The notes below the pieces were generated by a model that was not told the origin of the DNA, did not search any database, and saw only the letters and a program-made list of their open reading frames with translations. A program made the translations under genes and the position numbers. A stretch of DNA of 64,000 nucleotides from NCBI RefSeq assembly GCF_020520425.1, contig NC_079492.1:113681157-113745156 (forward strand). The letters run 5' to 3'. This stretch comes from Spinacia oleracea. Lineage: Eukaryota; Streptophyta; Magnoliopsida; Caryophyllales; Amaranthaceae. Positions 4,372-59,206 of this stretch are shown one piece after another (the first letter of the stretch is position 1; each line of letters begins with the position of its first letter).

Positions 4372-7300
4372 CTAGTAACATGCCCAAGGACTAGCCCGTT
4401 GATCTCTTAAGACTTGTTGTTGCACTACCAATACAGATCCCGAGGTATTAAAGTCAAGTGATACCAAAAAATCCCCTATCAATCCTAATTCAGGATTATC
4501 ACTCCAATCTGATAACCCCTCCAATAAAGTTGGATTAATTCCACTTTTCCTCCCGACGACCCAAAGATCTATTGGAACGCTATCGTTCAACGATTGCACC
4601 GCCGAAACAGTTTCGAAACCATTGCTCACAACTACTTCCTTGTACACTACTTTGTCATTCATCTCATTTTTGACCCAAAACCAAGTTACCACCCCATCAT
4701 CCAACTTCCTTTCTGACTCATTATCCCCTTTGTATTCACTTGCCAAGAACCTAACAACGATCAATGACACATCAGGATGTTCTACCATTCGAGCTGCCAA
4801 TGAGAGGGCTTCACGAGCATCTGGCCCACCAAGGAATAACATGGCAAATTGACGATGTACACGGTGGCTCGTTCGAGCCGGAAGTGTTCCCCATGCAGCT
4901 GCATTTTTGCATGCTAGAATTCCCACGGAACATGGTGCGTGAGATAATGTGTTAGCATTAGCAGATTGAACTCCTTGCCTAAGTATGGCGGTTGAAAAAT
5001 CATTCCCATCTTCAATACATTTTTTATGGAAGGGTAAAATAATGAATCCTACCTTGTTCAATAAGGCAATTTCACAAATGTCTTGGTACATGGTCCGTTG
5101 AGGGGTAACACTTGTAAAAAAGTTCATAGTAATTGAGTCTGTACGAACCTCTTCGTAGAGCTTGATTGCGTTGTGAACAGCTTCGTTGTTGTTGTCGTAA
5201 TAATCATCACTTTGCTTCGTATGGTCGATGAATACTGGTGCAGCTCTCCCTACGAGTTCGATAAGGTAGAGAGCAAAAACTATAAAACGATCTTTACAAG
5301 TTGGATTAGCAAATTCCAACAGGCTAAATAGGCTAGCCACACTTTCTTGGTCGTAAATGCAGGCTAGGATTCGTAGTTCGGAATCTTGTACTGTGTGTTG
5401 TATGGTTCTTTTTTTATTGATCATATATGGTCTTGTAGGGTCATAAAGGTAATCAAGTATAGGGGTGGATATGCTAGTCATTATGATTGTCAAAATTACC
5501 ATCAATGAGAAAGATGGCGTGTTTACGATCTGCAAACAAAGATCTCGAGTAAGTAGCATATATATTTTTTTCCGAAGAGGAGTAAGTAGCATATATTTAA
5601 GAATTAAAACACCAACACTGGTAGTAAAATTTGAAATTAATTGAAGTATACAAATTAGATTCTAGTAGAAAATTGTATTCCATTAATATATTTAATTATT
5701 AATATGAAATATTCATAAAAACTTGATATCAATTTAGTAAAATCTTATATGACAATATTCTCCGTATGTAATAATCTAAATTTGTTTTTTTTAAAATAAA
5801 GTAAGAGGAAAGTATAAAAAGTTAAAGTTTAGCAACATCTAAAGAATATGTGATATAGTGGTACCTTTAAATCAATCCAATGAAGATATAGAAGAAACTC
5901 GGTTTGACCTCTAAGGCTAAGCATGAAGCCCATAGCAAGAGAATCTCTATACGACATGTCCATCCATCGGGCCGACATGGAAACTGAAATAAGCTTGGAT
6001 ACATAGCCCATAACAGCCATAGCGAAGAGTGGAGTTAAGCAAGACCAACAACCGGTCATTGCAAACACATTTGTCTTGAGCCCAATAGTAGCATATGCAA
6101 AAGGCATAAGAATATCATTCATAAAAACCTCACTCTTATTTACAATAGTTGCCCCGATAGGGGGTCCATTTGGTATAGCTAAACCAAGCCAAAGAGGGCC
6201 ATTTCCAATTGCAGCCCCAATAAAGTCGGAGAAGAAAGCAACTACAAAAACGGCGAGTAAAGTAGTAGTAATATATTTTTGATCCACGGGTTTACCTTCA
6301 GGAGTTTGCCGGTTAATCCATTCCATTACTAGTGGTACACCACCAAATATTAAGGTACCAACCCCAGCTACTGTTAACATGTAATAAATCGTGTTAACTT
6401 TTTTCCCTTCTCCTACCTTAAGGGCTTCAAATATAATAATCACCACTATACCAATAAGGTCACTAATGAGAGCCGTTGTTAAAGCAATGCGTCCAATGTC
6501 TGAGCTTAAAAGTTGCATGTCTCTTAGAATGGAGTAAATAACTGGAAATGATGTGATAATAACAGCCGATACTATACCTCCTATAGAAACATCCCTTCGG
6601 AGTTGTGGGTCCATGTATCCTCGTATACATGCTATTACTACCCCTATGCAAATTAGGGGTACTATCAACCCGGATATTGCAATCACCCAATGTTTCTTTC
6701 CGGCCTTAGTAATCACACCTAGGTCCGTTTTCACCGCCGTTACAAACATGAAAAACATGAATCCCATGATCCCGATATTTTGTATTACAAATCGCGAGTT
6801 ATCTGGAATCACATTCTTCGCAAAGTTCTCATTATGTCCTAGGACCGATGGTCCAAGGATTATGCCTGCCTACACACACAAATAAGTATTATTATTTTCT
6901 AGTGTAAAACATTCATAAAGGTAAAAATGTATGATTTTTCCTGGATGTATGGAGACTTATAAAACATGATATTTTGCATACCATGATTCCACGTATCCCC
7001 TCATTGATGCTTTTTTACTACTTGTTTCCATTATATTTCAAATTTATTTAGACAATAAAAAATAATCACGCTTAATAAATTTTTAGGATAGTATTCTAAA
7101 ATATATTTTACACCCCCCACACACACATATATATAGGATACAAGAAGGTTTCATTGATAACAAGTCGATAACCATAAAAAATAAAATTGAGAAAAGACTT
7201 ACAATAATATCGCAGATGACTTTAGGTTGTTTGAGAGGCTTCAGAGCGAATCTCATAATTTGACTGAAAATAAGAACTATAGACATTTCTAAAAGGAGAG

Positions 7301-8175: not shown

Positions 8176-9835
8176 TATTATATTTGTTTCAGTGCCGGGC
8201 TATAATTACGTCACGACAATGAGACCCTGTGCAATATTTTTAAATGGTGCCCTTAATTCATTACTTTAAATTAAATATCCAATTTTTATTATACAAAAAA
8301 CCTTCACTTACAAAATTTTGTCGAAATGATAAACATAACAAACAAAAAAAAAGCATTAATAAAATCACTTTAAAAGTGTATCATTTAGCCGTTAAAAACG
8401 AGATTTTATAATGAATTGAAGGATGAAATGAAGTTGGAGATGAAAAGTTTTTTGAAAGTTGAATGAGAAATATGGGGAAGAACAGATGAATGTGTGTTTC
8501 CAAGTGTTTCCCATAATCCCAAGTGCATAGTAATGTAGCCCACTTGGACACCCGATTTTCATTGCACTCGGGTTCTTCTCTCTTTCAAAAAAAAAAAAAA
8601 AAAAGTGCATAGTAATGTACGTAAAAAAATGAAATTATAGAGTCAAACTACAACTGTATTAACTCTGAAAATCAATCAAAATGCAATTTTTGTTGTAAGG
8701 GGTTTCGAACCGAGCCCTCTACCGTATTAATGCATTACCTTAACCAATGCTCCAGTTTAATATTTTTGTATATTTAGGAAACTAATTAAAGTATATTTAA
8801 AAATAAAATTTTGGGGCCCTGTTCCGTCGCTCACCCCGTACCGCCCCAGAATCGTCCTGATTTGTTTTTTTTGTTCTATTCAATTACATCGTCTTCAATA
8901 CGTATCTTTGAATGTTTATATAATTCATTGTGTATTTTTAAAAGTAATAAAAGATGATACAACAAAAACATATAATGAAACAAATCTAACAAAATCTCAA
9001 ACACTTATTTCTTTATTTTATACAACTCACGAAATGCGTACAGTAAAACATTTTTTTTTTTTACTTTGACCTACTTAATAATAAGTAAGTAGAAATAAAA
9101 TACGGAGATTATATTATTTTAAATGTAATTAATAAAGTATCTACGATTGATTTGAACAAGTACTTCGTATTGGAAATCAAGTAAATCTATGAAAATAATA
9201 CACAAAAAATCATTAAAATTACCAAAAATTGTGTAAAACAAAAGATAAAAAATCAACAGACACAGACTTACCATTTGGAGTAGTTGCAGAAGAAATTCTC
9301 CCAAACAAAGGGAAAAAACTGAAATTAAGGATGAAATGGAGGAGAAACTTTTATATCTGAGTGAGAGAGAGAAACAAGAGGGTTGGTGGAGGCGGAGGTC
9401 TCTAGGTCTTGGATAAGGGAATAGTGCCCTTGCAGCGAACAATTACGGGGGCGAAGTTGTAATTGCGAAACTAATTGCAACTTGTATGACACGTGCACGC
9501 TGCGAATTTAGAAAAAAAAATAAAAAAATCGCAACGCTCTTTCGATTTAAAAAGTTGCGAAAAGCTCATTTAACTTTGACCCGCATTGACTATATAGTTG
9601 TTGCAACTCCTATAATTAGCATGAGTTGCAAATTTGCAATTGATGAGTTGCAAATGTCTCTACTAGTGTTAGAATAATTGAAATTGCTACTTTGTACGTG
9701 GTCACTTTGCTTTAAAGTTAATTCAAAGAACCTAAGGTCGGGTTGTCCAAAAATTATCTTTGTTAAGAGTGACGTAACCTTTTGTTTTGTTGTATTTAGC
9801 ATGTTGGGTGATGAAAGCAATAAACATACTTGCAC
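8176..9835. other. Intergenic, transposon debris
   Basis: AT-rich DNA with homopolymer runs (poly-A at 8588-8604, poly-T at 9050-9061). A possible donor site (minus strand, near 9271) follows a short serine/leucine-rich frame at 9272-9442, but no downstream exon is found. At 9663-9671 the sequence CTCTACTAGTG resembles a CACTA transposon end without a mate. No supported gene. Confidence 0.35.
8690..8765 (-). mobile_element. tRNA-derived SINE or tRNA relic
   Basis: On the minus strand TGGAGCATTGGTTAAGG (A-box-like) is followed about 35 bases later by CGGTTCGAAACCCC (B-box). This is the spacing of a polymerase III internal promoter. Flanks do not form a tRNA acceptor stem, so a SINE head or decayed tRNA copy is likelier than an active tRNA gene. 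Confidence 0.45.
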
Positions 9836-18243: not shown

Positions 18244-18961
18244 AAAGGACATCCTGGTTAGTCTTGCAAGCATAATGTAAATAGGAGGGTGACGATCCCC
18301 ACAGTTTAGAGACAGTCGGTCGTGGTGACCCTCCTCTATACGTGTTCACTTTCCCCAACTTCAAAGTTGTTATGTTGTGATTTAATTTTAATAGTTACAT
18401 ATTATAACAGAATTGGTCTAGCGAGGTTGTTTCAAGAATGACCTGCAGGTCTAATAATTGTTGAATCATATTTTGAGCAAATAGCATGGAATGTAAAGTA
18501 TACTTAAGAAACAAGTGTGATTAGTTATGAGTTAACGTTAGGGGAGACATCGTCTCTCATCTCTTTCTGAAAATTTTGGTATAGTGTTTTACATGTACCA
18601 TAAGTGGCATAGTAAGGTCATGGATTTGAATTTAAGTGTTGTTTTTTTAATATTATTTTCCTTTCTAATATTTATAAAAACAATGTTATTTGATGACAAA
18701 AAGTTTTTAAAGTGATTCAGGAGTGATTTTCATTGAGTGGATCCACTACTACAAATCATCACTTGTGGAACGAATTATGCCACGGGAATTTCAAACTCGT
18801 GGCAATTTTACATCTTGCCACGGGAAAATAACATTCAGTCATTCACTAATAAACTAAGAATGACAACAACATTTATGCCACGGGAAAAATACATTCGTGG
18901 CAAACATACGCTTGTGCCACGAATTTTGCCACAAAATTATTATCGTGGCTAATAAAAATTA

Positions 18962-19486
18962 GGATAAATTATTTTTTACCACTTAAAAAAATCGAAAAAT
19001 TATTTTTTACCACCTAAAAACTAAAACTTGTATTTTACCACCTAAACAATTTTAAAAAATTGTTTTTTACCACCTGAAAAATTAAAGTAGATGAAAATGT
19101 TATGTGGGGGGCACAATAACGGTAATATTTCATATATGTTCTTTTCTTCCACTATTTCATGTATTTAATACTCTTCTCTTCCCCCGCTTTCTTATTTTCC
19201 ATGAATTCACATAATTTTCACCATTATTAATTCATAAAATTAACAAAATTTAATGAAAATAAAGAGAGAGGGGTGAAAGAGTTAAAGAAATTCATAAAGG
19301 GAGTGTAAAAAATTGGAGAGAAATTGAATTAGGTAGCCACACATAAAGGTTGCATCTACTTTTTTGTTTTTATGTGGTAAAAAACAAGTTTTAATTCTTT
19401 TTTAGGTGGTAAAATACGAGTTTTAGTTTTTTAGGTGGTAAAAAACAATTTTTCGATTTTTATAGGTGGTAAAAAACAATTTGTCC
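18962..19486. mobile_element. Mutator-type foldback element inside the CACTA
   Basis: TAAAAATTA occurs at 18953-18961 and 19487-19495, a 9 bp target duplication. The ends begin GGATAAATTATTTTTTACCA and, from the right (reverse complement), GGACAAATTGTTTTTTACCA. The inverted repeats extend about 120 bp and are themselves built of a ~30 bp motif containing TTTTTTACCACCT. The 525 bp element has no coding sequence. Confidence 0.85.
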
Positions 19487-19489
19487 TAA

Positions 19490-21670
19490 AAATTAAAATA
19501 TTTTTTTATCTAAAAAAAAACACACATTAATTTTCATAAGCGGGAATTATTTGGTGAGCGCACTCTACTATTCATCTCTGTTCTCAACTGCAAATTCCCT
19601 AAAACCGTGAGAAAGCCTTATAAGGCGACACCGATACACCGCAAAGAAACCTTCAAGGCTTATCGCTGCTGCTCAAGAACAACGGCGAAATCAACACCGA
19701 TTCTCCGCCTAGGTATTTTCCCTAAATTAGCTTCAACTTCTCGCCTGTTTCTCTCACCTCCTCCACCCTCCCGATGCTTCTCTTCCGTGCTTAATTCTCA
19801 ATGAATTACTACGCTCTTTTCTTCTATCAGACATTAATCCTGATCTAAATCATGTGGTATTTCAATTACGCGGTTGTTTTTTTATATACAAAGTATTGAA
19901 TTCAATCTTACCGTATTTCAATTTTTCTATTGATTGTCTATTTTTCATATTTTACCTATTTTGTTGTACTGATTTGGTTGTTATTAATTGATCAAATTTT
20001 GAATTGCTGATGATAATCTAAATTTCTGATGATGAAAAATTACTAAATTTGCTGATTATAGGAATTGGGTTATTATTCCAAATTACTGGATTTGGTTATT
20101 ATGTAGGATAAGTAGCTGTTAAAATTACATGATTAGGTGATCTGCTGCTTTGAAATTTTGAAGTTTAAGAGCTAATATAAATAAGGAAAGGTTTGGGTAA
20201 TGATATTCTTGCTTTGACTTGGTGATGTTATTTGGGGTTTATGTTTGGAGTTGCAAGGCTAGAGTTCTTGTAGACGTATGTTTAACTGGTGGGGATTATT
20301 TTTGGAGCTGTTGGGCTGGTGCAATGCTGTAGGTATACTGCTGGTTCTGGTATCTGTAGGTTTTAGTTTGCAACTTGCAATTTGGGTTTTGGCTGTTATC
20401 GTTTGAATGTGTGATTGGAGACTGTAGTAGCAGGCTCTCCTTGATGTTATTTTGCAGCTTCCTGCTGTTAGTTTAGAAGGGTGCGATTTCTTTTGTGTGT
20501 GGTGGGTTAGTTTGTTCTAGGTGTTTGTCTTATTAGGAGTTTTCTTTAGGTAGTTTGGTGCAATTCGTAGTAGTCTGTTTGTTTTAGTTTGATAGGTTGT
20601 ATATAACCTTTTCTTTTAGGTTCATTTGCTGTCTTTCCACAAGTAGGGGTTGTGGACTGTTAAGAGTGCTTGATCCTTAGTATCCGTATGACCCATGGGG
20701 GCTTACTCCAAGTGCATTGGTTGCATCAATGTGTGACAGTTGGATATGTGGTAGTTACATGCTCATCTGTTTAACAACTATTTAGGTATTAAATATTTTT
20801 CTGGTGATCAATTTCATTGATTTCTATGGAGTATGTTCTAGGCATCTCATGTTCAATGTTCATCTTTTGTTGCATTATTTTAGGAACTGATTATAGGTAT
20901 GGTTGTGTATGTTCATCCTATGTTGTTCTATAATAAAGACTGTTTTAAAAGAGAGGAGTAAGACCTAGGTACTTGGAGACTAATTAGCATACACTAGAGG
21001 AAAAAACATCAAAGGTGGCTAGTTAAAGGTGGCCCTTATTTAACAAGGGCATCCTTTGACTGAAAAAAATTAAAACAAGAATAAATAAATAAAACTTTTC
21101 CCTCCTAAATCCTTGGAAGCGCATCTTTTGGGGTTTTAATTTGAAACCTAGCTCGCTGCTTCCCCTTTGTCGCTGCTTCCCCTTTGTTCTTGCTACTCCC
21201 GCGCACTACTCATCTTCTCCATCTTCTCCATCTTCGCTGCTCTAGTACTCGCACCAATCTCGCATTTATCTCCACTCCACCGGCGACGACCTCGACAAGA
21301 AGAACCACCATTGCGCAATTCTCTCCACTCGACCGACAATGACTTCAATTGAGTTCGATTTGAGCTTTTTCAAATTTCTCTCCTCAAGTTCCGAATTTTT
21401 GGTTTGTTCGAAATTTGTGATTTTTGTTTGTTTGATAGTTTATGTTTGATAATTTTCTAAGGTTTAAAGAGGATAATCTTTTTATGGATGCATTTCTCAA
21501 TTTGGGTTTGATTGGTGTTCAATGTAATTGGCAATCGATATTTTTCATTAGTTTGTACTCTGGAGTGTCTTCTCAGCTTATTTAGTTCCTTTTGCCTAAT
21601 TATTTATTTTAAATGAATTAATATTATCTCATGTTTATCAACTGATGATGTGATATTGCTACTTGGCTTT
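19490..21670 (+). other. CACTA interior: leader-like and intron-like sequence
   Basis: 19545-19690 looks like a 5' untranslated exon (CTCTCTGTTCTC, then CGCCTAG/GTATTT at about 19711), and T-rich intron-like sequence follows to about 21150. A second C/T-rich, leader-like segment is at 21110-21350. No protein is recognised. A lone CACTAGAGG at 20992 has no convincing mate. Confidence 0.3.
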
Positions 21671-21675
21671 GTCCC

Positions 21676-22050
21676 AGGCTTATATTAATATCGAATTATA
21701 TGCTCGAGTTTCTGTTGCTGTGCTCTGTTACAAGCTAGCCGAGGTAGTTAAGATGGCTGCGTCCGGAAGAGAAACTAATGAGAGTCGTTCTGCCATTGAA
21801 TCTGGAAAGATGTTTCTTTTGGAGCTTCTTGACTCTGCGATAATGTTCTTTTATTGGTACTGGTTTTTTATAATTTATAATTTTTTATTTCCCTGAATTG
21901 GTAATTGGTATTGACATATATTTTCTCGACATATGTTATGATGTTTAGGAAGTTATGCTGGGATATAACTAAGGATATGGAAACTCTGCTAGCTATCATC
22001 CATTTTTTTACAAGCATATACGCGGACGAACTTCATATTTGCACAGTCCC
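21676..22050 (+). pseudogene. Captured exon fragments of an unidentified gene
   Basis: After an acceptor-like CCCAG at 21678, the frame reads AYINIELYARVSVAVLCYKL, AEVVKMAASGRETNESRSAI and ESGKMFLLELLDSA. A second segment after TTTAG at about 21949 reads DITKDMETLLAIIHFFTSIY. The composition is that of an alpha-helical host protein and the exon borders are intron-like, so DNA-level capture is likely. I cannot name the donor gene. Confidence 0.35.
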
Positions 22051-24457
22051 TCGTTTTTTGTTTTTAGTGTATGCAATGTGCAATGTGCAATGTGCAATGT
22101 GATTTGTGAGCTTGTAAATGTTATCTTGGAGTTTCTGTTGATTCTATGGTTAGGATTTCACTTTTGTTGGTTGGAAAATTGAGGTTTGTAAAAGAAGTAA
22201 TGAACAATGTAGGGTAGTGGTTTGACAGGAGATTTGGTTTGGTTCAGATATTGTTGGATGAGTTTTTAGGTAGCTACTTGGGGTCTGTACAAAATATCTG
22301 TATCATTTCCTCAAACAACTAATTACTTAAGAAGCAAGACTTGGGTGAGATCAACTGCTGAATATTTGTTTTCTATATAAAGAAGCAAAAGAAAAGTTTA
22401 ATATCGATCATGGCAGGGGAAAGTAAAAATAAAACCAAAAACAATATAGATGAAAAATAAGTACTTGTACTGATGTACATGGGATAGTGTTGGTCCTGCT
22501 ACCATTATTTTCTGAATTTCCTTCTACAACACATACAACCATGGCAATTAGTAGGAGAAGAGCAAAAAATAGAGTGCAGCAGCATCAGTTTAAAAATTTA
22601 AAAACAACCACAAACTGATTTAATAAAAGTAGACATCAGAACTGATTAGTAATGACTAACATTACACAGATTAGGCCATCACAAATTTGATTTGTTTATT
22701 GTGTTCTCAACGCTTTGTATGTCTTAAGGAAGACCTACTCTGATCTTTATGTGTATAATGTATGTGTAACACATGCTTCTGGAAACACCCTGATTTCATA
22801 CATAGTCTTAAATGTTTGACAGTTCGTGATCAAATACTTTGCTGACATCAGGTTCTGATCATGGCAGAATTGGGGAACATGAGCACAAGATAAAGTGGTG
22901 GACATGACCAATTTTTATATGGATTGGGGAATAATGCTGCAAAGTCTTAGGTGTAAGTGTAATTCTCAGTCCTATGGTTTTGTTGTAGTTAGCAACTATG
23001 TTGATATTGCTAAAGTTTTGGAGCTATAAATTATTTTGCAGCATGATCAAGATTATCATCCAGGAAAGAGGAAGCGAGGCAAAGATTATGAGGGAATGAT
23101 AAGGTGCACACTTTCCATACAACAAATAAGAACTGGCCTCTTGACAAAAATGCTTACTGGCTACAACTACTGGTACGTTCATCAGTTTATTGAATTGAAA
23201 ACCGTAGTTTATAGTGCTTCACAGTGGATACCAAGAGACTTGCACCGAGTTAGTGGTCCATCAGAGCTTATAAATAGAAGTGTTCCAGCAGTCTATACAT
23301 GCTACAAGAATTGCTCCTTGTGATCTTTAATATGTTCAGGTGCTCATGTAAAAGAGTGATGAAAGAAATTCAAGCTTGTCTTTTTTTTTTTTTCGATTGA
23401 GGGAGGCAGATCAAAGGTAACAAAGATTGATTTGAATGACAAAGAAAAAGAAAAAAGAGTTTTAGAGTAATTGATAAGGACAGAGTTAAAATTTAGGAAT
23501 GAGTTAAGGAAGTAAAAATCCATATAGAAACTTACTTCCAGTGTATATAAAAAAAACTCACTTATCAACAAACCTATAGAATCAAATCATCAAGTTTATG
23601 CTAGTCTCACATACCAAATGTAATATTTTGAGACAATACATGTATAAAATCTAACAATAAGCCAATCACGAGATAAAGAGTTTTGTAGATGATGTACAGT
23701 CAAATTTTGATAATTAAACCTATAACATTTATCAATTAACATACCAGAACAATCAAACAAAATCAGTGAACTAAAGCAAAAGAATTGAAGTTAAAATAAG
23801 TATTTTCTTATAAGCTGGAACAGGTACACACACACACAATGTGAGGAGTCTAGCCGTCTAGGTTGATCGAGGTATCTTGAGCTTTCCCCCTGGATAGGAT
23901 TTTTATAGGGTGTTTTTTTCCCTTATTTATGTACTTTTTAGTAATCAGTTATCACCTGACTATCCTTACAGCAATTTACATCCGTAAAGAATTGCTGTAA
24001 TTGACCAGTGTTCAACGAAATTTAAAATCACTGAATTTCTTTTGCTTACAGTGTGGTAGTTCTTGATTCTTCTCTCTTCCTCGGTGACCCTATTTCCTTC
24101 CGGGAGAAGGATTCATTGCATCTGGAATCGTGGATACCTCTTAAAGACATGAATGTTGCTAGAACTAATCATCTCTTTGGAAATAATTTTTTATTTATAA
24201 CACAGCGGTGATTGATTGTGTTGCTTATTCTTTAGCTGACTAGGTGACATGCAGGTGCATCCTTCTTCTGTTCTGTATCTGTCTCTGCACTGTTGTGAAT
24301 AACTGGCTCGCTGCCCATCTATGTTACCCTTACACACTAGTTAGTCTGAAAGCATGTGTCCGGCATTCTAGAATGTACCTTTATCTATCTGTATGACTTG
24401 GTAATGGTTATTGATAGCTCTTCATAGTTGTATTTCCACTAACTAAACTTTCTGTAG
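22051..24457 (+). other. CACTA interior: intron-like with short coding-like pieces
   Basis: Mostly T-rich, intron-like sequence. Coding-like pieces of unknown identity are seen at 23036-23105 (QDYHPGKRKRGKDYEGMI) and 24051-24190 (DSSLFLGDPISFREKDSLHL then ESWIPLKDMN). A GCAATGT motif repeats four times near 22074-22101. Confidence 0.25.
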
Positions 24458-24715
24458 GTGAGGTACAGGGATCATACCAAATTAAAGTTACTACAACTGC
24501 TTTGGCTCTTTTGCTGTCTACCAGGCATGTTGAATTGGCAAAAAACTTTGTTCAAGGTCATTTGATTCAGGTTTGAATTCTTATCCTAAACGTATTCGCA
24601 GAGTTACTGTATGTAACTCTCAAGAGCTGACTGTCTATCATGTGAAGAGCGTTGTAGGAATAACAACGCGTTCAAAAGCTAAATCAGCTCCCGATCAGTG
24701 GACCGTGATGGCTGT
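24458..24715 (+). pseudogene. Captured fragment, tentatively importin-9-like
   Basis: After CTGTAG at 24457 one frame reads EVQGSYQIKVTTTALALLLS and TRHVELAKNFVQGHLIQ to a possible donor at 24570. A second segment near 24653 reads GITTRSKAKSAPDQWTVM and then hits a stop. From recall this resembles the C-terminal HEAT-repeat region of an importin-9-type karyopherin, a nuclear import receptor. The two segments do not join cleanly in phase with the obvious splice sites, so boundaries are uncertain and the piece is surely non-functional alone. Confidence 0.35.
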
Positions 24716-25263
24716 AGTTGGGTGATGGGTGTGATCGACAATCCCTTCTATGAATTTGCATTAGTTCTGATGTATCCGGCAATGAGAAGAATACTGTCAA
24801 CATTGTGTGCATTTAAGGTGTTATAGTCATTCTTGGTCAACCAAAGCGTTCATTTTTCTTGTGTGTGGCTTGTTGTGTGTAAGAGAGTAACAAGTAAGCA
24901 TAATGTAGAAAGTCTATAATGAGTCAAATTAGCATCTTTCTTATACTATCAATGCCCAGAACCAATAAAAAAGAGGAAGATTTAGTCATTTTGTGTGTGT
25001 TCCTGTAAGTGAGTTGCTTCCTTTATGCATAATATTTCTAACAACTACAACAAAATCTACCCAGCTTAGACTTGCTTCTGGTAAGTGTAACAGGAGTATT
25101 CAGAGAAAGTATTAATGGAACTACAATTAGTAAATATATCATTGGGTGGAGGAAATATGAAGTAAGAATAATTTTTGCAAACACTGATCATTTTTATTTC
25201 GTTGTTGTGATTTTTTCAAGCGGCATATTTACCTTGAATCTTACTCAAAGTTGTTTTGTTTAG

Positions 25264-25426
25264 GTGTGTTGTTCTTGTGAGTGCTGATAGTACTGACAGT
25301 GTTCAGTTCTGGGATATTAAGCATGGAACACTGTTGCAGGCTCATTCCCTTCACAAAGGCGATTCGTACGCTTTAGCTGCTGCCCCTTCCCACGATAGGG
25401 TGTTTTCTGCCGGTTCTGATGGCAAG
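25264..25426 (+). pseudogene. Captured WD40 exon, UTP4-like
   Basis: A 163 bp exon flanked by TTTAG and GTATAC encodes [40 protein letters not shown] and [12 protein letters not shown], i.e. one WD40 blade (FWD) and the start of the next. The wording of the repeat resembles the UTP4/Cirhin WD40 protein of the small-subunit processome, which acts in nucleolar 18S rRNA maturation. A full protein would have about 12 or more repeats over 700 aa; only this exon is present. Retained intron borders argue for DNA-level capture by the CACTA element. Confidence 0.55.
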
Positions 25427-25576
25427 GTATACAAACTCTTAACTGCCATGTTGATCAATTAAATAAAAGTCATTCTACTGATGTTATGTGGGTTAGAACT
25501 TGATCATAATGTCATTTACCAACCTCCTGGAGTGTTCACAGAAACTAGCTCTACTTTTGTGGTTGCGTTGCTTTTG

Positions 25577-25722
25577 ATCTAACCAGCAGCAGATCAGCAG
25601 CAGCAGATCAAAAGCTGATCAGATCAGCAGCAGATCAGCAGCTGATTTGAGCAGTCTCTGATCAGCTACTGATCTGCTGCTGATCAGATCAGCAGTAGTA
25701 GATCAGAAACTGATCTGATCAA
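25577..25722. repeat. Palindromic GATCAGCAG array
   Basis: About 145 bp built from GATCAGCAG / CTGCTGATC words in both orientations, e.g. GCAGCAGATCAGCAGCAGCA on the left and GATCTGCTGCTGATCAGATC on the right. The whole tract can fold on itself. Confidence 0.75.
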
Positions 25723-26001
25723 AACATCGAATGCTAGTTATGATGATTTATGTGATTGTAGAATTAACAAGTAATGTGGTCTTGACTTGTTCTCTGTACT
25801 TGAATGAAGAAATAAATGCTCCATTGGCATTAAGAAAATGTTTTATTGGCATGTTATACCGTTACTGTTATTGGCTTTGCCTAAATCTAAGGATAAGTTA
25901 GCATATTCCTTGAGAAGATAGTATATTTGTATGAGAGGCCAAATGTTTTGATCGAAGGAAAGAAAAAAGTAGAAGGGACTAGGAAGAGGGAGATAAGATG
26001 T

Positions 26002-26605
26002 GATCCTTACCTGTCATATTTTGACTAAAACAGGAGTTTTCGCTCCCAACTCTCAACTAATGAACCAAAATAAGAATTCTTAACCCTTTACATGTTTAAA
26101 ATACTTAGTATTAGGTTATCAATCCTCATTCTCATCTACTTTGGTCAATTTATGCACATTTAAGGCTCGTTCGATCCTTACATGTCATATTTTGAAAAAA
26201 ATAGTCGTTTTCGCTCCCAACTCTTAACTCATGAACCAAAATAGGAATTATTAACCCTTTACATGTTTAATATACTTAGTATTAGGTTTTCAATCCTTAT
26301 TCTCATCTACTTTGGTCAATTTATGCACATTTAAGGCTCTTTCGATCCTTACATGTCATATTTTGACTATGAAAGCTGTTTTCGCTCCCATAAATGACCT
26401 ATATCGACCAAAATGACCCATAGGCGTGCATAACGAACTTAAAATGAGTCTTATAATCATATAACTAATCATATGAATCATGAAAAAGGGTTAGAATGTG
26501 GAAGTAGGTTCGTTTGTTGGTAGTTGGGATAAAAAATGCCAATTTTGGCCATAAATGACCTATATCGACCTAAATGACCCATAGGCGTGCATAACGAACT
26601 TGAAG
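26002..26605. repeat. ~171 bp tandem array inside the CACTA
   Basis: GATCCTTACNTGTCATATTTTG recurs at 26002, 26173 and 26344, a spacing of 171 bp. Each unit carries GTTTTCGCTCCCAACTC and ATTTATGCACATTTAAGGCT; a diverged tail continues to 26605 with a duplicated AATGACCTATATCGACC segment. The reverse complement shares words (GGGAGCGAAAA, GAGCCTTAAATGTGCATAAA) with the array at 45262-46425, so both are one family. Confidence 0.75.
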
Positions 26606-26649
26606 TGATTTGGTTTTGAGGTGTAGAGCATACTGAACTCTTCAATGCC

Positions 26650-26815
26650 AAGATTCTTATCTCATTTACTGTGTCCTGGTTGAGAATCTTCCACTTTTCT
26701 CCTTTTATTCCTAGCTTCGCTAGCAACAGGCGCCTCCAACTGATTTTTTTTTGCTTGCCGTTCTTTCTTCGATCTTTCCTCAGAGACAACTGCTTCAGAT
26801 GGTACCATTTAGTCC
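26650..26815 (-). pseudogene. Lysine-rich exon-like segment
   Basis: The minus strand reads VPSEAVVSEERSKKERQAKK and NQLEAPVASEARNKRRKVED, then SQPGHSK and a stop. Charged linkers like this occur in plant-mobile-domain/Ulp1 transposon proteins, but the assignment is speculative. It lies immediately beside the 171 bp array. Confidence 0.25.
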
Positions 26816-28087
26816 AAAGTTATGTTATATCTTGTTTGTTCACATGTTCAGTATGATTTCACCGGCCCTTTCACCAACCTGGTTGTACAACCAATCACCA
26901 ACTACCTAATTGGTATAGTTGCACTTGCCAGGTTAAGTCATAAAACCTTGAGGTCAAACAATATCAATCTACTAACTAAAGTGCAAACTTCCAGATATTT
27001 TCTGAACAGAAGTTCATAAAATAATTACCCGATACATGCTTCCAAGTGTTCCAACTTCCAAGTGCTAGACAGGGAAGGAATATATTGACCATCTCAAGGT
27101 ATTTACAGAAGTATCAATTGAAAGCTAACATACTAAGAAAATTAACCAATATTTCTCTATTTGGCAAGAATGATATTCAACTCCATGCACAGGAGACAGA
27201 ACCAGACTACACCACATTCCGCTCACGCTTCACAGAATCCACTAATATCCCTTCTTACAAGATAATGATAATGGACTCCAAAAATTATAATATATCTAGA
27301 GAGAGTCAAAAAACTAAAATAGACAAATGAATCTTACTGGTGTCTCATGCTATTTTAATCTATCTTTTCGCAAGTTGATTGCATTATGTTGTTATATTTT
27401 CACATGCAGAATTTATTCATAATTGTGAGCTCTAGTGTTTTTTTTTATCATATTAGCCTTATTAGTTTCTTTGCATAATTTGCTTTTCCCTTGTTTGTCC
27501 AGCAACTGTTCCCAAATCTTCAAGTGTAGCCATGCCTCCCTCGTAGCAGTATTAAGCACCTATTCCATAGTTCAGAAAATGATTTAGTGTTTGCTGGTAC
27601 CATTAAAGACGTTAACCGAAGGTGGGATCCAGATGAATGTTATAATTCCCAGCATAAGAGCTCTTCCAAATTGAAATAGATGATGAAATTATTTTAATCT
27701 TAATTGTATTCAAAATTTTATTCTTAATTTTAATCTTATTCGTCGTCTCTGATGGGTATAACAATGTTTATGGTTTTTGTTTGTATTTGTAGGTAAAGTG
27801 AAGTATGTATACTAAGGAAAATAGCCAAATTATATGGAGCAGCAAAATATTGTGGATGTCTTTGATATTATGGAAGTTAACTACTGTATTTTGATTTTAG
27901 AGATTTTAGAGATACAAAATAACATTGACTTATTTTCTGTAAACAAATTGGTGTTTTGTTTTATGCAAATACTTTTGTGGTAACAATTATGAAATCAATG
28001 AAAGTTTTTGCTTAAGACTATTATTGTTAGTTTTGAATTTTCTTGATTTATTGGAACATATACACAGTACAGATTATAAATAATTAA
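26816..28087. other. CACTA interior, 3' part
   Basis: AT-rich sequence with a coding-like piece at 27585-27675 (FAGTIKDVNRRWDPDECYNS) followed by a 3' UTR-like stretch. The piece could be another captured exon; I cannot identify it. Confidence 0.25.
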
Positions 28088-28438
28088 TGTATGTGGCTAA
28101 TTGAGTTTTTAGCCACAAATGTTGTATTCTTGCCACGGTTTTTTTCGTGGCTATAGGATATTACTTCCCACATGATATTACTCCTCGCCACGAGTTTTCA
28201 CATTTTGCCACAACTTTTTCCGTGGAAAAATACTATAATTTGCCACGGGTTTTCCCGTGGCCAAAAAAATTAATTTTGCCACAACCATGTTTTTCCTATG
28301 GCAAAATTCTTGCCACGGCCACTTGTTCCACGGGAGTATCAGACTAAAATTTCCGTGGCTACATAGCATAGCCACAGAAATTTTCTACTTGCGCCACGGT
28401 GATTACCGTGGCACAAGTGATGATTTGTAGTAGTGATC

Positions 28439-31472: not shown

Positions 31473-34400
31473 CTACAAACAAGTGCAATGATTAGCCTCT
31501 TGATCTCTTAATATTTGTTGTTGCACAACCAACACAGATCCTGTGGTGTTAAAATCCGTTGATATCAAAAAGTCGCCTAATACTCCTAATTCGGGATTAT
31601 CACTCCATTCTGATAAACCGTCTAACAAAATCGGATTAATTCCATGTTTCCTCCCTACAATCCAGAGATCTATAGGAAAACTATGGTTCAATGATTGTAT
31701 AGACGAAAGCGTTTCAAAACCATTGTTCACAACAACCTCCTTGTACGTTAATTTTTCGTTCCTTTCATTTTTTACCCAAAATGAAATAACCACCCCATCA
31801 TCCATCCTCCTCTCTAACACATCATCCCCTTTAAACTCGTATGTCAAAAATCGAACCACGATCAATGACACATCAGAATGTTCCATCATACGGTCAGCTA
31901 GGGAGAGGGCCTCACGGGCATCAGAGCCACCAAGGAAGAGTATTGCGAACTGGCGTTGGATATTGTTGCTTGCTCTATTTTGAAATGATCCCCATGTAGC
32001 AACACTCTTGCATGCTAGAATTCCCACAGAGCAAGGTGCATGAGCTAAAGTGTTATCATTTGCAGATTGCACTCCTGGCCTATGTATGGAAGTTGAAAAA
32101 TCATTCTCATCTTCAATGCATTTCTTATGGAAGGGTAAAATAATAAATCCTACTTTGTTTGACAAGGCAATCTCACATATGTCTTGGTACATGGTATGAT
32201 GAGGAGTAACGCTTGTAAAAAATTCCATTGTAATGCGGCCTGTATGAGCCTTTTCATAGAGCTTGATTGCATTGTGAACGACCTCATTGTTATTATCCCA
32301 ATACTCATCATGCGACTTTGTGTGATCAATGAAAAGGGGAGCGCCTCGACCCAGGAGCTCGATAAGGTATAGCGTGAAAACTTTTAATGGGTTTCTAGTT
32401 GTTGAATTAGCAAAGTCCAGCAATCTAAACAGGCTGGCCACACTCTCTTGATCGTATATGCATGCTAGGATTCGAAGTTCAGATTCTTGCATTGTGTGTT
32501 GTATAGTTCTTTTTCTGTTGATCATGTATGGTCTTGTTGGATCATAAAGGAAGTTGATTAATGGACTAACTATGAATGTCACTGCAATTGACAAAGTCAC
32601 CAGCATTGAGAAAGCTGGCGTCTGTATAATCTGCATTTACATATTCAAATATCACATGAAGAAGATTGATAGATAACAACTTGAAATTAGATTAAATAAA
32701 ACATAACAACTACGTACATAAATCGAACATTAGTTTTTTTTTTTAATTTGAAATGAGTTGTCGCTAATGAGATTTATTTAACAACATAAGTTAAGTATAA
32801 GGTTAAAGTATTAAGGGTGGATGTAATACCTAGAAAGGAAATGACGTAGATTGAATTCGTTCCTAGGTATTACATCCACTCCCTAGTACTTTAACCACCT
32901 AAATTTCACACTCACTTCCATATTACACGCCTTATTATTTTTATTTGGGCTCATATTGGCACTACCTCTTAAAGTTGCATGATATCACTAAGTTTTTATT
33001 ATTATTTCCTACGTTTTTCTAAATTACTTTACTTAGTTATTTCTATAAAAATATATACAAAAAATACCCCTACTCACACCCTTCAAGGAAAAATGACCCA
33101 CGTTACTTACTAATTAACTATAAAAACATAGTATTTATCAACTAATACACAATAAAATATCAAGTCAATATTTTTTTTCTAAAATTCTATGCATATCAAA
33201 TTGGTGAGAGTAACTTGAGATTGAAATTAAATGAGTAGCTGTTATCTACTATAGGAATCATTTGAAAATCCCTCTAATGACCAATTATTTATAAACCATA
33301 AAGAATTCTCCTTAAAAAATAGTGATTTAATTTAAATTCACTTTAGTAAACACAATTTATTATTATAAAGTCTCCCAAAGAATCATATGATCTTTATTTT
33401 TTATATTAAATAGTACCTTTAAATCCATCCAATGAAGACACATTAAAAATTCCAATTGGCCTCTGAGACTGAGCATTAATCCCAAAGTAAGTGAATCCCT
33501 ATAAGACATGTCCAAAAATCGAGCCGCCATAACAATCGCAACCATCTTCGTTACAATGGCAACAAATGCCAAAGTAAATATGGGAGTTATGTAAGTCCAA
33601 AACTTGGTCATTGCAAACACATCTATTTTAACGCCAATGGTAGCATATGCAAATGGCATAAATATTTCGTTCATAATAAACTCACTCTTATCCACAATAG
33701 TTGCCCCTATTGGGGGTCCATCAGGTATCGCTAACCCAAACCAAAGAGGCCCATTTCCAATCGCAGCACCAATAAAATCACTAGTGAATCCAATCACAAA
33801 AAATCCAAGCAAAGTAGCAATAATATAATTTTGCTCTATTGGTTTACCTTCAGGAGTTTTCTTTTTAATCCATTGCATTACATGTGGTACGCCATAAATT
33901 ACTAAGAAAGTAACCCCGGGAATTGTTAACAAGTAACATACCAACCTCTTAATTTTGTTGTGTTTTTGCCAATATGCTTCAAATGCAACAATCGCAATTA
34001 CCCCGACAAAGTCACTTATGATCCCTACTGATAAGGCAAGACGTCCAATTTCCGAGCTTAAGAGTTGCATTTCTTTTAGAATAGTGTAAATAACTGGAAA
34101 AGATGTGACGATCATAGCTGAAGTAATATTTACTATCGCAAAAAATTGTACGAAATCTGAGTCCATATCTTTTCGGATGCATATTGCTACTAACCACAAG
34201 ATATTGTAGGGAATTATTATCCCAGCTGATGCAATTATGCAGTGCTTTTTTCTGGCTTTGAAGATTACATTTAGGTCCATTTTCACACCCGTTACAAACA
34301 TGAATAACATAAATCCTATAATACCTATATTTTGTATAACAAATTGCGAGCTCGCCGGAGTTACATACTTTGCAAAGGTGTTGTTTTGACCTAGACCTGA

Positions 34401-34921
34401 AGGTCCAATGATTATGCCCGCCTATACACATAGACACAAGCATAGTTTATTATATTTATTAATGTGATGCAGAATGATTTAATCTCAAGAGAAAAGTACC
34501 ATGATTAAGCAAAAAAGTTGCAATGCATACATAATATATTATAAGTATATTTTTTTCTTACTATTTATCTTCATTAATTTGTTAAGTATGTTCACCATCA
34601 AAAAATCATCTTTTAAAGTATTGAAGATAACAACTAAAAGTAGATCCTTTAATTTATCAAAAATTCATAATCATAAAAAAGAAGACTTACAAGAATTCCG
34701 GAGATAACTTTAGGCTGTTTGAGAGGCTTCAAGAGAAAGTGCAAGAGGTGGCTTAAAATAAGAACTATAGACATTTCTAAGAGGAGAATAGTGAAGGAGA
34801 AATCATGAGGATTAGAACCACCTTCAAATATTAAGAAGGGAGGGTCTTTACGACGTTGTCGACAAATATCACCCACCTTCGTCCCAATGGACTCATTCAG
34901 CTCGAATGAATTATAATCCAT
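31473..34921 (-). CDS. Cation/H+ antiporter (CHX family, CPA2), copy 2
   Basis: Exons 34921-34691, 34421-33417 and 32630-31473 (231, 1005 and 1158 bp; phase 0 introns, donors GTAAGT and GTACTA, acceptors ATAG and GCAG) give 797 aa. The membrane exchanger domain shows AGIIIGPSGLG at residue 78, VTSFPVIYTILKEMQLLSSE around 182, ISD with Asp214, and NGPLWFGLAIPDGPPIGATI. The C-terminal regulatory part repeats the copy 1 motifs (RTIQHTMQESELRILACIYD, VGFIILPFHKK, DLWIVGRK). Exons 2 and 3 have exactly the copy 1 lengths; exon 1 is four codons shorter. The only in-frame ATG near the start is at 34921. No disabling change is seen. Expected role: K+(Na+)/H+ exchange, often in pollen or endomembranes for this family; the membrane cannot be told from sequence. 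Confidence 0.9.
32801..32896. repeat. Foldback inverted repeat in CHX copy 2 intron 2
   Basis: GGTTAAAGTATTAAGGGTGG at 32801 pairs with the right arm ending at 32896 (reverse complement GGTTAAAGTACTAGGGAGTG); both arms continue through GGATGTAATACCTAG. Arms are about 34 bp with a ~29 bp loop. It may be a tiny MITE. Confidence 0.75.
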
Positions 34922-40360: not shown

Positions 40361-41267
40361 GTTACTTTTATGATAATTCAACATTTTGATTTGATAAATA
40401 TACTATAAAATAACACATTAATATATTTTTTTGGTTAAATATAGGACTTTATTACCAAAAGGTAGAAAATACAAGAAGAATACAAACTCAAAAACAACAG
40501 ACACGAGTTAAGGGAGGACAACCCACAACCCTACCTAAAACGAAAAAAAAACACAACCATTAGTGAGAACCCAACCTGCATACAAAAGCAACAACTTCAC
40601 AAAAACAGATTGCACCCACCAAAGAAGCACAATAACAGAAACTCAAATAGAAGCAAAGAGCAAATAACTTGAACACAAAACGAGCCTGCACCCAAAACAT
40701 CAAGCATGAGGTCTACAACCAGACCGCATAGAGAAGGAGTAGAAGCCTGCAGACAGTAACAAATGCAGCAGCTACCAGAGTACCCAGCCTACACCTAGAC
40801 GAAGAACCCGCACACACCCATCACAAGCAAAATCTCCATGCTAGCGAACAAACCTAAAGGAGCAAACAAAGAAGAAATAACGGAAATAGGCAACAACCAT
40901 ACAACAAACTTTAAGTTACGAAACCTTGTAAGTTCTTAAATCGAAAGCATCTAGAATAAGTGATAAAATGGACTTGCAAAATAATATCATCAGGCGTCTT
41001 CTGAATATTTAGAAATATCTTGCAGTTTCGTTCCTTCCAAATGAGATAAATAAAAATAACAAGCACCAATCTAAATAAATGATCCTTGTTTGAATTGCAG
41101 TTGTTAAGAGAAATATCATACTCCAATTCTTGATTCCAAGGACTTGGAGATCTCTGAATACCAACCCACTATAAAGCACTACTCCAAACTTCACTAGAGA
41201 ACTCACAGTCAATGAATAAGTGTGAAATGCTTTCACTACCTTTTGTGCAAAGGCAACAAACAGGATC

Positions 41268-43981
41268 TCTAAGATGTATGTCTTAGTGACTAAATTGAAG
41301 AAGGTTAAAGTTGGTCTGAAAGAGCTCAATAAGAAGGGTTTTACTGACATTCAGGCTGCTGAAATTAAAGCTCATCAGGCAATGTTAGATGCTCAGCAAG
41401 CCATGCATTCTAATCCTGCAAATCAGCAACTAGCTGATCTGGAGTTAGATGCCATCAAGGAATATAAATTACATCATCAAGTGTATATGGACTTTTTGAA
41501 ACAAAAAGCCAAGCTGGATTGGATCAAATTTGGTGATGAGAACACTTCTGTTTTTCATCAGAGTATCAAGGCCAGAAATGTTCAGAATCATGTTTACAGC
41601 ATATATGATATGCATGGAAAATGGCAAGATACTCCAGAAGCAGTTTCTGATGCTTTTCTTGATTATTATAAGCAGCTACTGGGTACAACTCAAGCTGGAA
41701 GAAGATCTGTAATCAAAGAAGTGGTGTTGGCTGGCCCAGTGCTTACTGATCATCACAGAGCTATTCTCAATGCACATTACTCTAGAGAGGAAGTGAAGAA
41801 TGCTCTATTCTCCATTCCTGGAACTAAAGCTCCTGGACCAGATGGTTTTGGCTCTTTCTTTTATAAGGATTCTTGGCATATAGTGGGAGATGAGGTAATT
41901 GATGCAGTTTTTGATGTGTTGAATAATGGTAAGCTTTTAAAGAAGATTAATCATACAGTCATCACTTTAATTCCTAAAACAAAATGCCCCAAAAATGTTA
42001 GTGAGTTTAGAACTATCTCATGTTGTAATACACTTTATAAATGTGTTACTAAGGTGATGTGTGGTAGATTGAGACAGGTGTTGCCAGACTTGATTCTTGA
42101 GAATCAAGGGGGGTTTGTGCATGGAAGATATATTGCTCATAACATCATGGTAGTGCAGGATTTAGTAAGGCATTATGGAAGGAAATCTGTTCAGCGTAGT
42201 TGCCTGTTAAAAGTTGATTTGCAAAAGGCTTATGATACTGTAGATTGGTGTTTCTTGAAGGAAATGTTGGAGAGTTTGGGATTCCCTATTGCTTTTAGGG
42301 AGTTAGTGATGACCTGTGTTACAACCCCTATGTTCTCTCTTATGATAAATGGTTCTATGCATGGGTTTTTCAAGTCTAAAAGGGGTTTGAGACAGGGTGA
42401 TCCTATGTCACCTTTGCTGTTTGTTATATGCATGGAGTATTTGTCCAGAATATTGCATAAGTTGATTGAATTGCCTCAATTTCAGTTTCATCCAAGGTGT
42501 AAAGATGTGAAGCTCACCCATCTTTGCTTTGCTGATGATCTTATCTTGTGTTGTAAAGGGGAATATCCCTCCATATATTCCTTGCTCCAAGATTTTGCTT
42601 TATTTTCCATGTCTACTGGTTTGATGGCTAACAAGAGTAAGTCTGCTATTTATTGCCATGGCATGTCTGAGAGTGATGTGAAAATAGTAGTGGATGCATC
42701 TGGTTTTACTAGGAGTACTTTGCCATTCAAGTACCTAGGAGTGCCAATCTGTTCTAATAGGATCTCAGCAAGTCAGTGTGATGTTTTGGTGGACAAAATG
42801 ACAGCAAGGATTAAAATATGGAGCACTAGGAATTTGTCCTACACTGCTAGAATGCAACTGGTAAATTCTGTTCTTTTAAGCCTGCATATGTACTGGGCTC
42901 AGATTTTCATCCTTCCTAAGGGTGTTCTGCATGATATTCCTAAGATTTGTAGAGCTTTCTTATGGAGTGGGCAGGCATATAGTTCTAAACCAAGCTCTGT
43001 TGCCTGGGATAGAGTTTGTTCACCTAAACAGGTTGGTGGTTTGGGTTTTAGGGATGTGGTCACTTGGAATATTGCTAGTTTGGGAAAATATGTGTGGGCT
43101 ATCACCACTAAGCAGGAAAACATCTGGATTAAGTGGATTCACTCAGTTTACATCAAAGATGGGGACTGGTGGGAGTACCAACCAAATGCCTCTGCAAGTT
43201 GGTACTGGAAAAGGATATGTGAAACAAGAGATCATCTGAAGCAAGTTTTCTCCTATACTGAATTTAGGAATATGGCTAAATATTCTGTCAAGCAGGTTTA
43301 TAACAAGTTGGTTGGAGATAAACCTCATGTTCAACGGGATAAAGTGGTTTGGAACACACTGAATATGCCAAAGCATAGGTTTATATGCTGGCTTGCAATG
43401 CAGAATAGGTTACAGACTACAGCCAAGTTAGCAAAAATAGGGGTGAGCACCTCTGCTGATTGTTTAATTTGTAAGCAAGCTGCTGAAGTTCATGAGCATC
43501 TGTTTTTCAGTTGTCAGTACAGCAAAATGTGTTTTCAAGACCTGGCAGCATGGCTTAACATTAGAAATGTTAATACTGGTCTGCACAATGTCATCAACAC
43601 CATCAAGAGAGGGAAGCATTCCAAATTCAGAAACCAAGTATGCTATGCAGGGGTGACAGCTTTGGTTTACTTGATTTGGAAAAGTAGGAATTAGAGTTTT
43701 TGGGAAGGGTCAGTTCCAACAGTTGATTCTGTTATGAGTAATCTGAAACGAATTGTAAAAGATAGAATTAAATCTGTCATGTGTAAGAGAGTAAGTAGAA
43801 GAGATAATACTTGGTTTCAGAGTCTGTAAGTAGGTTTTGGTTTCTATAGCCTGCTGGCTGTTAGGTGTTGGTTCCTTTCTGCTGATGGCAGTTAGTTGTA
43901 GTGTGTGTTCACCTCTGTGGGAGGAGATTAAGCTGTACTGTTTTTGGTTGGTAATAATTATAATAGCTTGCTTACCAAAAA
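41268..43981 (+). mobile_element. Younger 5'-truncated LINE, 13 bp target duplication
   Basis: AACAAACAGGATC is found at 41255-41267 and at 43982-43994, directly after an A-rich tail (43976-43981). The 2.7 kb between carries most of a LINE ORF2 but no endonuclease, so the copy was truncated on arrival. It landed in the zinc-binding region of the older LINE in opposite orientation. Confidence 0.88.
41274..43829 (+). pseudogene. LINE ORF2: reverse transcriptase and zf-RVT
   Basis: An 806-codon open frame runs to TAG at 43692, and coding similarity continues in frame to TAA at 43827-43829, where the relative at 10191 also ends; the TAG is thus a premature stop about 45 codons from the true end. 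Visible in order: DWIKFGDENTSVFHQSIKAR linker; RT fingers with PGPDGFGSFFYKDSWHIVGD; KVDLQKAYDTVDW (first catalytic Asp); GLRQGDPMSPLLFVICMEYL; FADDLILCC (catalytic Asp pair); ARMQLVNSVLLSLHMYW thumb; and the C-terminal zinc motif CLICKQAAEVHEHLFFSCQY. The N-terminal AP endonuclease is missing through 5' truncation. The RT core looks intact. Confidence 0.88.
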
Positions 43982-51523: not shown

Positions 51524-51541
51524 GTGGTATCACGAGCCCCT
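51524..51541 (+). other. Primer binding site (initiator tRNA-Met type)
   Basis: Directly after the LTR the sequence is G then TGGTATCACGAGCCCC. The first eight bases match the usual initiator Met-tRNA complement TGGTATCA; an extra C precedes GAGC. Confidence 0.7.
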
Positions 51542-58341: not shown

Positions 58342-59206
58342 TGTCTCTGTTTAATGTTTTAAAGTTTTAGAGTTTAAATCTTTGTAAAACATTATTGGTT
58401 AATCATTCACAATAAATGAAAGGAATTCATTTTTCCATTTAATTTGTGGTTTATTAAATGATGAGTCCCTTCAACTTGACGATATATTCAAGATAGACTG
58501 TCAGGACCAGTCCTGTGACTAAGAAATGTCTATCAAGTGAACTTGAATGTCAAAGGTTGAAAATGGTCCCTAGTCGGAGTTTTCTATAAAATTGGACGCA
58601 TAGAAAACGTTAGACGATTAGAATGCAAGATGACTAGTAGTTCTGTTTCTTGAACTATGTGGACATGGCAATGTCATAATCATTTGCATAGATACTTACT
58701 TTGGGAAGACTAGTATCGGACAAGACCTATGAAACTTTACTGTAAGAGATGAAAGTCTGTCATAAGTAAATTTCATTAAATTGTTAGACACTAAATCCTC
58801 AATACCTGAGTGATTTGAGATTACTTGTTTGAGAACTGGTTGCTTTGACGTTGACCAACCGTCGCACCGTAAAAGGAGGCTATAAAGGCAACGCTCAGGT
58901 AATCACCTATCAAACGAAGTCTAATCTCAAGATCGCAAAGATTGGGATTGTCCTCCCATAAATCGGGATGAGATGCTTAAAAGTTGTACAAGGCCACTCG
59001 GAGAGCTAGAAACTGTGAAATGCATGGCCGTGCTCGGATGAATCATAGGCTATGATTATCTGTTTATTTGATCAGTTGAACTCTGAAACCGAGGAACACC
59101 TCTGGACATAATAAGGATGACAACTCTTACCTTATGTTCAAGAGCAAGCATCGAGCGACAAAGGAATTAGGAAATGCACACTTGTCCCTAAGGACAAGTG
59201 GGAGAC
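58342..59206 (+). other. 3' non-coding region and polypurine tract
   Basis: No open frame of interest. The last 16 bases, AGGACAAGTGGGAGAC (59191-59206), form the purine-rich tract that primes plus-strand synthesis next to the 3' LTR. Confidence 0.7.

Follow-up and report, generated by a model that had tools for sequence, protein, structure and literature searches.

A probable Pack-CACTA element in spinach with a second gene-carrying CACTA element nested in its mosaic of host loci

The window analysed here, a stretch of 64,000 nucleotides from the spinach (Spinacia oleracea) genome (assembly GCF_020520425.1, contig NC_079492.1, here C6, positions 113,681,157-113,745,156), contains a CACTA element, A, that runs from 18744 to 28435 as a single unit of 9,692 bp between matched ends. 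To judge from its sequence, A is very probably a non-autonomous Pack-CACTA element that carries a mosaic of host loci, in which a pack element of a second CACTA family, B, is nested, with transposase supplied in trans and the captured exon pieces drifting as passengers. It would most likely move by cut-and-paste, using the transposase of long relatives that have the same termini and GCCACG sites, and the joined pieces of host loci, which appear to be DNA-level copies with introns, would occupy the place of the transposase genes of these relatives. B would have gathered pieces of UTP4, importin-9-like and SpoU/TARBP1-like genes before jumping into a piece that A had captured, and a subsequent deletion would have taken the right end of B together with ~330 bp of the invaded piece. 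Of this account the termini, the relatives, the donor matches, the nesting and the loss of a stretch are observed, and the mobilisation in trans, the sequence of events and the passenger state of the exon pieces are deduced. Searches of the genome cover an assembly of 894,210,420 bases in 242 contigs, and loci are given by contig and position, often in megabases (Mb or M).

CACTA elements are marked by short inverted repeats that start with CACTA, a 3-bp target duplication, subterminal arrays and relatives with a Tnp2-type transposase, and A has such termini, duplication, arrays and relatives. An earlier reading of this DNA, made from its letters alone (the sequence-only reading), had noticed matched 24-bp termini and a duplicated ATC, and both are borne out, the termini agreeing at 24 of 24 positions. 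It had also described subterminal arrays; GCCACG, counted on both strands, occurs 16 times in the terminal 215 and 350 bp of A and 0 times in the interior; in 1000 letter shuffles the terminal count averages 0.08 and never exceeds 2. Its claim that the element lacks a transposase agrees with a tblastn search of the window with five open reading frame (ORF) proteins of transposase-bearing relatives, which gave weak matches alone (three in the window, E 0.21-0.52, two of them within A), and no transposase was found in A. This, together with host gene DNA that has identifiable genomic donors, places A among the Pack-CACTA elements. Pack-MULEs are marked by a 9-bp target duplication and Mutator-type ends, and the 3-bp duplication and CACTA ends of A rule out that identity.

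The 24-bp terminus of A is found at 39 places in the assembly at up to 2 mismatches, compared with 0 for the reversed control, and the further copies for which the sequence-only reading had advised a search thus exist and include long relatives. Termini were paired as plus and minus by eye, which gave eight candidates including A itself and left the remaining termini unpaired; both flanks were compared in six pairs (again including A), and C1:34.1M and C4:94.6M were compared at their ends alone. Target duplications match in three of the six pairs, these being A (ATC/ATC), C6:43.1M (TGT/TGT) and C6:26.1M (ACA/ACA), and the left and right ends of A match the left and right ends of the latter two, which are 27.6 kb and 26.2 kb long. 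The C6:43.1M relative carries Tnp2 (PF02992, E 5.7e-98) and Transpos_assoc (PF13963), and open frames resembling its own are found in three other relatives. In C6:26.1M and C5:122.9M there are ORFs that match DUF4216 and DUF4218, similar frames are visible in C5:69.0M, and low-complexity or sub-threshold Pfam matches in the relatives (TrAA12, chorismate mutase) were disregarded. What A has in common with these relatives is confined to its ends, that is element positions 1-216 (1-254 in one), ~746-1310, 8720-8775 and ~8926-9692, where adding 18743 gives the window position. Within the 3' region no match was found between 27518 and ~27669/27727 in the A relatives compared. Four long relatives have 13-18 GCCACG in their ends and 0-0.11 per kb inside, a distribution like that of A. 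As a separate observation, three right-type A ends lie ~3 kb apart at C2:52,784,066-52,790,328, and the same spacing is seen 20 kb away (C2:52,804,407-52,810,473, termini alone), forming a tandem array of A-family ends.

The mosaic between these ends (Table 1) has at least seven contributing loci, namely UTP4, importin-9-like, SpoU-like, CENP-C, C2:103.483M, C6:53.43M and C1:78.49M, of which four are recognisable genes; a 366-bp piece would be the eighth. The CENP-C exon lies antisense to the other coding pieces and gave no Pfam match itself, and the next coding stretch of its donor at C4:171.445M matches CENP-C in PDB (E 3.2e-7), the CENP-C motif included. For the C2:103.483M, C6:53.43M, C1:78.49M and 366-bp pieces the direction of copying is judged from short shared blocks. 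That there is a gene at C2:103.483 Mb is our reading only; we take it to resemble a class-3 lipase gene, Pfam gave no match and the name is not claimed. The remaining matches to the mosaic are one A copy and short repeats.

The left terminus of B, which lies at 20992, has 213 occurrences in the genome at up to 3 mismatches, with a control of 0. This second CACTA terminus had escaped the sequence-only reading, which also missed a foldback insert (18962-19486) and the CENP-C exon in antisense (26646-26809). From 20992 to 26611 the window is collinear with C6:91,719,825 onward, at 96.7% over 5,586 aligned sites (Kimura two-parameter distance, K2P, 0.033); the homology begins exactly at CACTAGAGG, from the first base of B, and the preceding DNA differs. 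The copy at C6:91.7M is complete, 9,443 bp long, its two ends agreeing in their first 20 bases and flanked by a TAT/TAT duplication; the sequence of its right end has 198 occurrences with no more than 1 mismatch. A further copy at C1:37.857-37.876M is broken by other DNA and its ends were not seen. The captured DNA of B is present in several copies (own, C6:91.7M and C1:37.86M), and at ~7e-9 substitutions per site per year a K2P of 0.033 between copies would correspond, roughly, to ~2.4 million years.

The complete copy of B has an extra 363-bp duplication (C6:91,724,229-91,724,591) in which part of the UTP4 exon is present again in inverted orientation, and this creates an inverted repeat absent from the window copy; at the place of window position 24454 it has a 272-bp insert, likewise absent from the window copy, that starts CACTACAAGAA and ends TTCTTGTAGTG. 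Across the genome 1,046 occurrences of the motif CACTACAAGAAAA were counted, versus 68 for its reversed control. Within the tandem repeats of B the 171-bp portion is 26002-26390.

Matches to one locus, C2:103.483 Mb, lie on either side of B, collinear and in the same orientation, which shows that B went into a piece of this locus that A had captured. A later deletion would have removed the right end of B and ~330 bp of the piece. The join of B to the C2:103.483M piece has an overlap of ~3 bp, and the overlaps at six joins, taken by eye, are ~4, 4, 2, 0, 1 and 3 bp, too few to separate end joining from template switching.

Three coding pieces that the sequence-only reading had picked out (21676-22050, 24458-24715 and 25264-25426) are indeed in one orientation and flanked by introns, and all three could be matched to host loci, so the absence of parent genes, which would have told against capture, was not what was found. 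The reading's multi-gene capture in one CACTA element stands insofar as DNA-level, intron-containing pieces of host genes lie in a single element; there are, however, two capture histories, and these three pieces belong to family B. Its guess of a UTP4-like WD40 gene for 25264-25426 proved right, with a donor at C3:47.590M. In PDB this exon aligns with both yeast and human UTP4 in one stretch, at the same place in each, and the name was chosen because of this; three donor exons joined, the captured one included, match the two proteins over the last two exons, and a PDB search with one more donor exon by itself found nothing at E 0.01. Other places with the UTP4 exon (C6:91.7M twice, C1:37.86M and C3:58.59M) have more in common with the element than this block alone and are therefore read as transposon copies.

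The tentative mention of importin-9 was likewise well placed. The stretch 24458-24715 is two importin-9-like exons plus their intron, the second exon truncated, and the exons of the donor at C3:83.503M plus the captured ones match Importin-9 in PDB at E 1.4e-6; with the captured exon by itself PDB gave none at E 5. The third piece, 21676-22050, starts with a SpoU/TARBP1-like exon, in which the name TARBP1 is our assumption. On the same strand as the donor of this piece (C6:147.0157M) and 12.7 kb downstream of it, the SpoU methylase profile PF00588 scores 45.5 bits, which supports the assignment; this is one of ten such places in the genome and covers profile positions 98-141 of 142. For TARBP1 a PDB search gave no match and NCBIfam just a weak unrelated one (0.038).

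The own copy of B has K2P distances of 0.034-0.044 to the UTP4 and importin-9 donors, 0.044-0.046 to C6:91.7M and C1:37.86M and 0.054 to C3:58.59M, and being about equally far from donors and other copies it suggests that capture took place shortly before the copies parted. Asparagine synthetase was considered as a donor of 21987-22369, which matches a 390-bp stretch at C3:99.2145M (92.8%) beside asparagine synthetase exons, and was not counted; the first ~70 bp are also in the SpoU/TARBP1-like donor block and the C3:99.2145M stretch is probably a relic of the same composite. The remaining 22370-23799 matches B copies and a mosaic of repeats, and no single clear donor was found for it.

A number of observations weigh against the account of A as a mobile element with drifting cargo. 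In a non-exhaustive search no second copy of the mosaic of A was found and none of the other matches extends beyond a single block of it, so that movement of A after capture is at most putative. Target duplications mismatch in three of the six pairs (C1:66.6M, C5:122.9M and C5:69.0M), and C1:66.6M is not a clean element, its A-type right-end homology stopping well before its paired terminus. The PF02992 search covered one relative (C6:43.1M), and the Tnp2 matches are to be read as a putative transposase. In PDB the UTP4 pieces reach their lowest E-values, which are summed over repeats, with other WD40 proteins or with designed ones. Furthermore, the UTP4 exon retains both splice sites in the own copy and is open in six of the six places found, and the protein of the importin-9-like exon is 100% identical over 40 amino acids in the donor and three transposon copies (4/4), and these two exons may be used as cassette exons.

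Those last points lead to an explanation, raised in part by the sequence-only reading, in which the leader of A is transcribed and splicing joins the captured exons into chimeric RNAs, or hairpin or antisense RNA regulates the UTP4, importin-9, CENP-C or SpoU gene, which we consider unlikely. The A-family leader lies upstream of the pieces in the same orientation and has a conserved splice-donor-like GT (19713-19714; the aligned column is GT in 5/5 sequences, preceded by AG in 4/5), the UTP4 exon has its splice sites, the CENP-C exon is antisense to the others, and the strong hairpin at 25614-25693 or the inverted UTP4 duplicate of the C6:91.7M copy could seed small RNAs. Exons of the soybean element Tgm-Express1 are reported to be spliced into transcripts (PMC1947982). 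However, the native splice donor of the SpoU/TARBP1-like exon has changed from GT to AT in the three transposon copies compared, and importin-9-like exon 2 is truncated before its native donor site. The own UTP4 block differs from its donor at 6 of 162 exon and 11 of 240 intron positions (small numbers), exon and intron thus diverging alike, and this similarity together with the two lost native splice sites does not indicate a working chimeric mRNA; the UTP4 pattern fits drifting passenger DNA, and constraint is not apparent in it. The proposed leader-like exon (near 19550) does lie in a 5' region of A with the GT just described, but it is A-family sequence common to transposase-bearing relatives and is ruled out as a captured exon. 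Less probable still is a larger scheme, in which two CACTA families merge their collections, the product is one mobile unit under the transposase of the outer family, exons pass between families and the core-gene pieces of the unit (UTP4, CENP-C, importin-9 and SpoU methylase) give rise to antisense or chimeric RNA.

It would seem improbable, to much the same degree, that a single Pack-CACTA lineage captured everything and that the CACTA sequence at 20992 is one further captured piece and not a transposition of B. B has no right end here and all pieces lie between the ends of A, as such a history would have it, yet the homology to a complete B starts at the first base of B and continues collinearly for 5.6 kb, and a single locus lies on both sides of B as expected for insertion then deletion. 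That unrelated termini merely flank ordinary genomic DNA, a chance pairing of a kind that the loose pairs in the A family (three of six candidates without matching duplications) show to occur, can be dismissed, given the full match of the termini, the ATC on either side, left- and right-type ends placed as in the long relatives and arrays at both ends, and the separate-elements outcome that would have undone the sequence-only reading did not occur.

A, as a Pack-CACTA element, is of a known kind, to which Tgm-Express1 also belongs, and what is most unusual about it is the nesting of two families with traceable donors. Tgm-Express1 is described as a soybean CACTA element of the wp allele with five host gene fragments, and the likeness lies in exon-intron pieces of several unrelated host genes within a CACTA element (PMC1947982). 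The gene that has Tgm-Express1 in one of its introns is expressed, and splicing of the Tgm-Express1 exons was shown (PMC1947982), whereas A lies between CHX-type genes and is known from sequence alone; the load of A, unlike that of Tgm-Express1, also arrived partly with a second CACTA family. Pack-CACTA elements with DNA of several loci have been described, and according to one model insertions that lie next to each other can move again as a single unit (PMC8903248; PMC13317346). A resembles these in having DNA of several loci in one element and merged insertions, but the merge of A and B spans two families with different termini, is nested, and has as its inner member what was already a pack element (PMC8903248; PMC13317346). 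In Chenopodium, of the same plant family as spinach, CACTA elements capture gene fragments and one quinoa element holds a satellite of 171-bp units, a repeat length also found in B and compared by length alone (PMC8978399). The Chenopodium fragments described there, unlike those of A, lie upstream of a transposase-associated domain, and each element draws on a single gene (PMC8978399). No paper on this element was among the matches listed in a search of open-licence PMC text by title and abstract start. The element offers a traceable case in one assembly, with donors, sister copies and a complete inner element, of how pack-type transposons may build multi-gene mosaics in two rounds, and it is a warning for annotation that pieces resembling exons of conserved genes can be transposon cargo.

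Table 1. Features of element A, its nested element B and their cargo, in window coordinates
Feature	Position	Strand	Details
Left target-site duplication	18741..18743	.	ATC
A left terminal inverted repeat	18744..18767	+	CACTACTACAAATCATCACTTGTG, 24 bp
A-family left end with GCCACG subterminal repeats	18744..18958	+	74-90% to left ends of eight A copies
Nested foldback element, long inverted arms	18962..19486	.	~525 bp; A positions 219-743; 9-bp direct repeat TAAAAATTA at 18953-18961 and 19487-19495
A-family 5' region including the "leader exon"	19489..20053	+	parts 70-85% to A relatives
A-family intron-like sequence	20055..20212	+	80% to A copy at C1:22,955,742
366-bp fragment	20257..20622	+	91% to three loci: C1:32.32M, C4:144.29M, C8:0.42M
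Piece matching C2:103.483 Mb	20619..20991	+	blocks 20619-20839 and 20833-20991; 88-92%; 411 bp of locus missing between blocks
5' 5.6 kb of nested CACTA element B, right end absent	20992..26604	+	left terminus CACTAGAGGAAAAAACATCAAAGGTGGC at 20992
SpoU/TARBP1-like gene fragment, in B	21476..22057	+	~600 bp, 90.7% to C6:147.0157M; exon ~21678-21839
Importin-9-like gene fragment, in B	23800..24713	+	914 bp, 95.5% to C3:83.503M; exon ~24458-24570, truncated exon ~24658-24713
UTP4 gene fragment, in B	25173..25574	+	402 bp, 95.8% to C3:47.590M; exon 25264-25426, both splice sites present
Strong palindrome of AGCAGATCAGC-type units, in B	25614..25693	+	z -8.5; 3' of UTP4 exon
Tandem repeats of 171 and 161 bp, in B	26002..26604	+	higher repeat number in the two other copies of B
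C2:103.483 Mb match resumes	26602..26651	+	96% over 50 bp; ~330 bp further along locus
CENP-C exon, antisense to other coding pieces	26646..26809	-	164 bp, 95% to C4:171,445,283-171,445,446
Fragment matching C6:53.4326 Mb	26813..27331	+	80-88%
Fragment matching C1:78.4904 Mb	27331..27441	+	90%
A-family 3' region with GCCACG subterminal repeats	27463..28435	+	relatives match 27463-27518 and ~27669/27727-28435
A right terminal inverted repeat	28412..28435	-	exact reverse complement of CACTACTACAAATCATCACTTGTG, 24/24
Right target-site duplication	28436..28438	.	ATC

The foldback insert near the left end of A was unmatched in the A relatives compared, and from its 9-bp flanking repeat it is presumably a Mutator-type foldback. 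The two CHX-type cation/proton antiporter genes between which A lies are both on the minus strand (4372-6869 and 31473-34421). Elsewhere in the window Copia-type frames (54313-58341) lie within 50432-60080 and are flanked by identical frames of 205 amino acids (50432-51049 and 59455-60072), the flanking stretches being apparently young long terminal repeats; there are also a LINE-type reverse transcriptase at 41226-43694 and FAR1/MULE-type pieces at 48011-49489.

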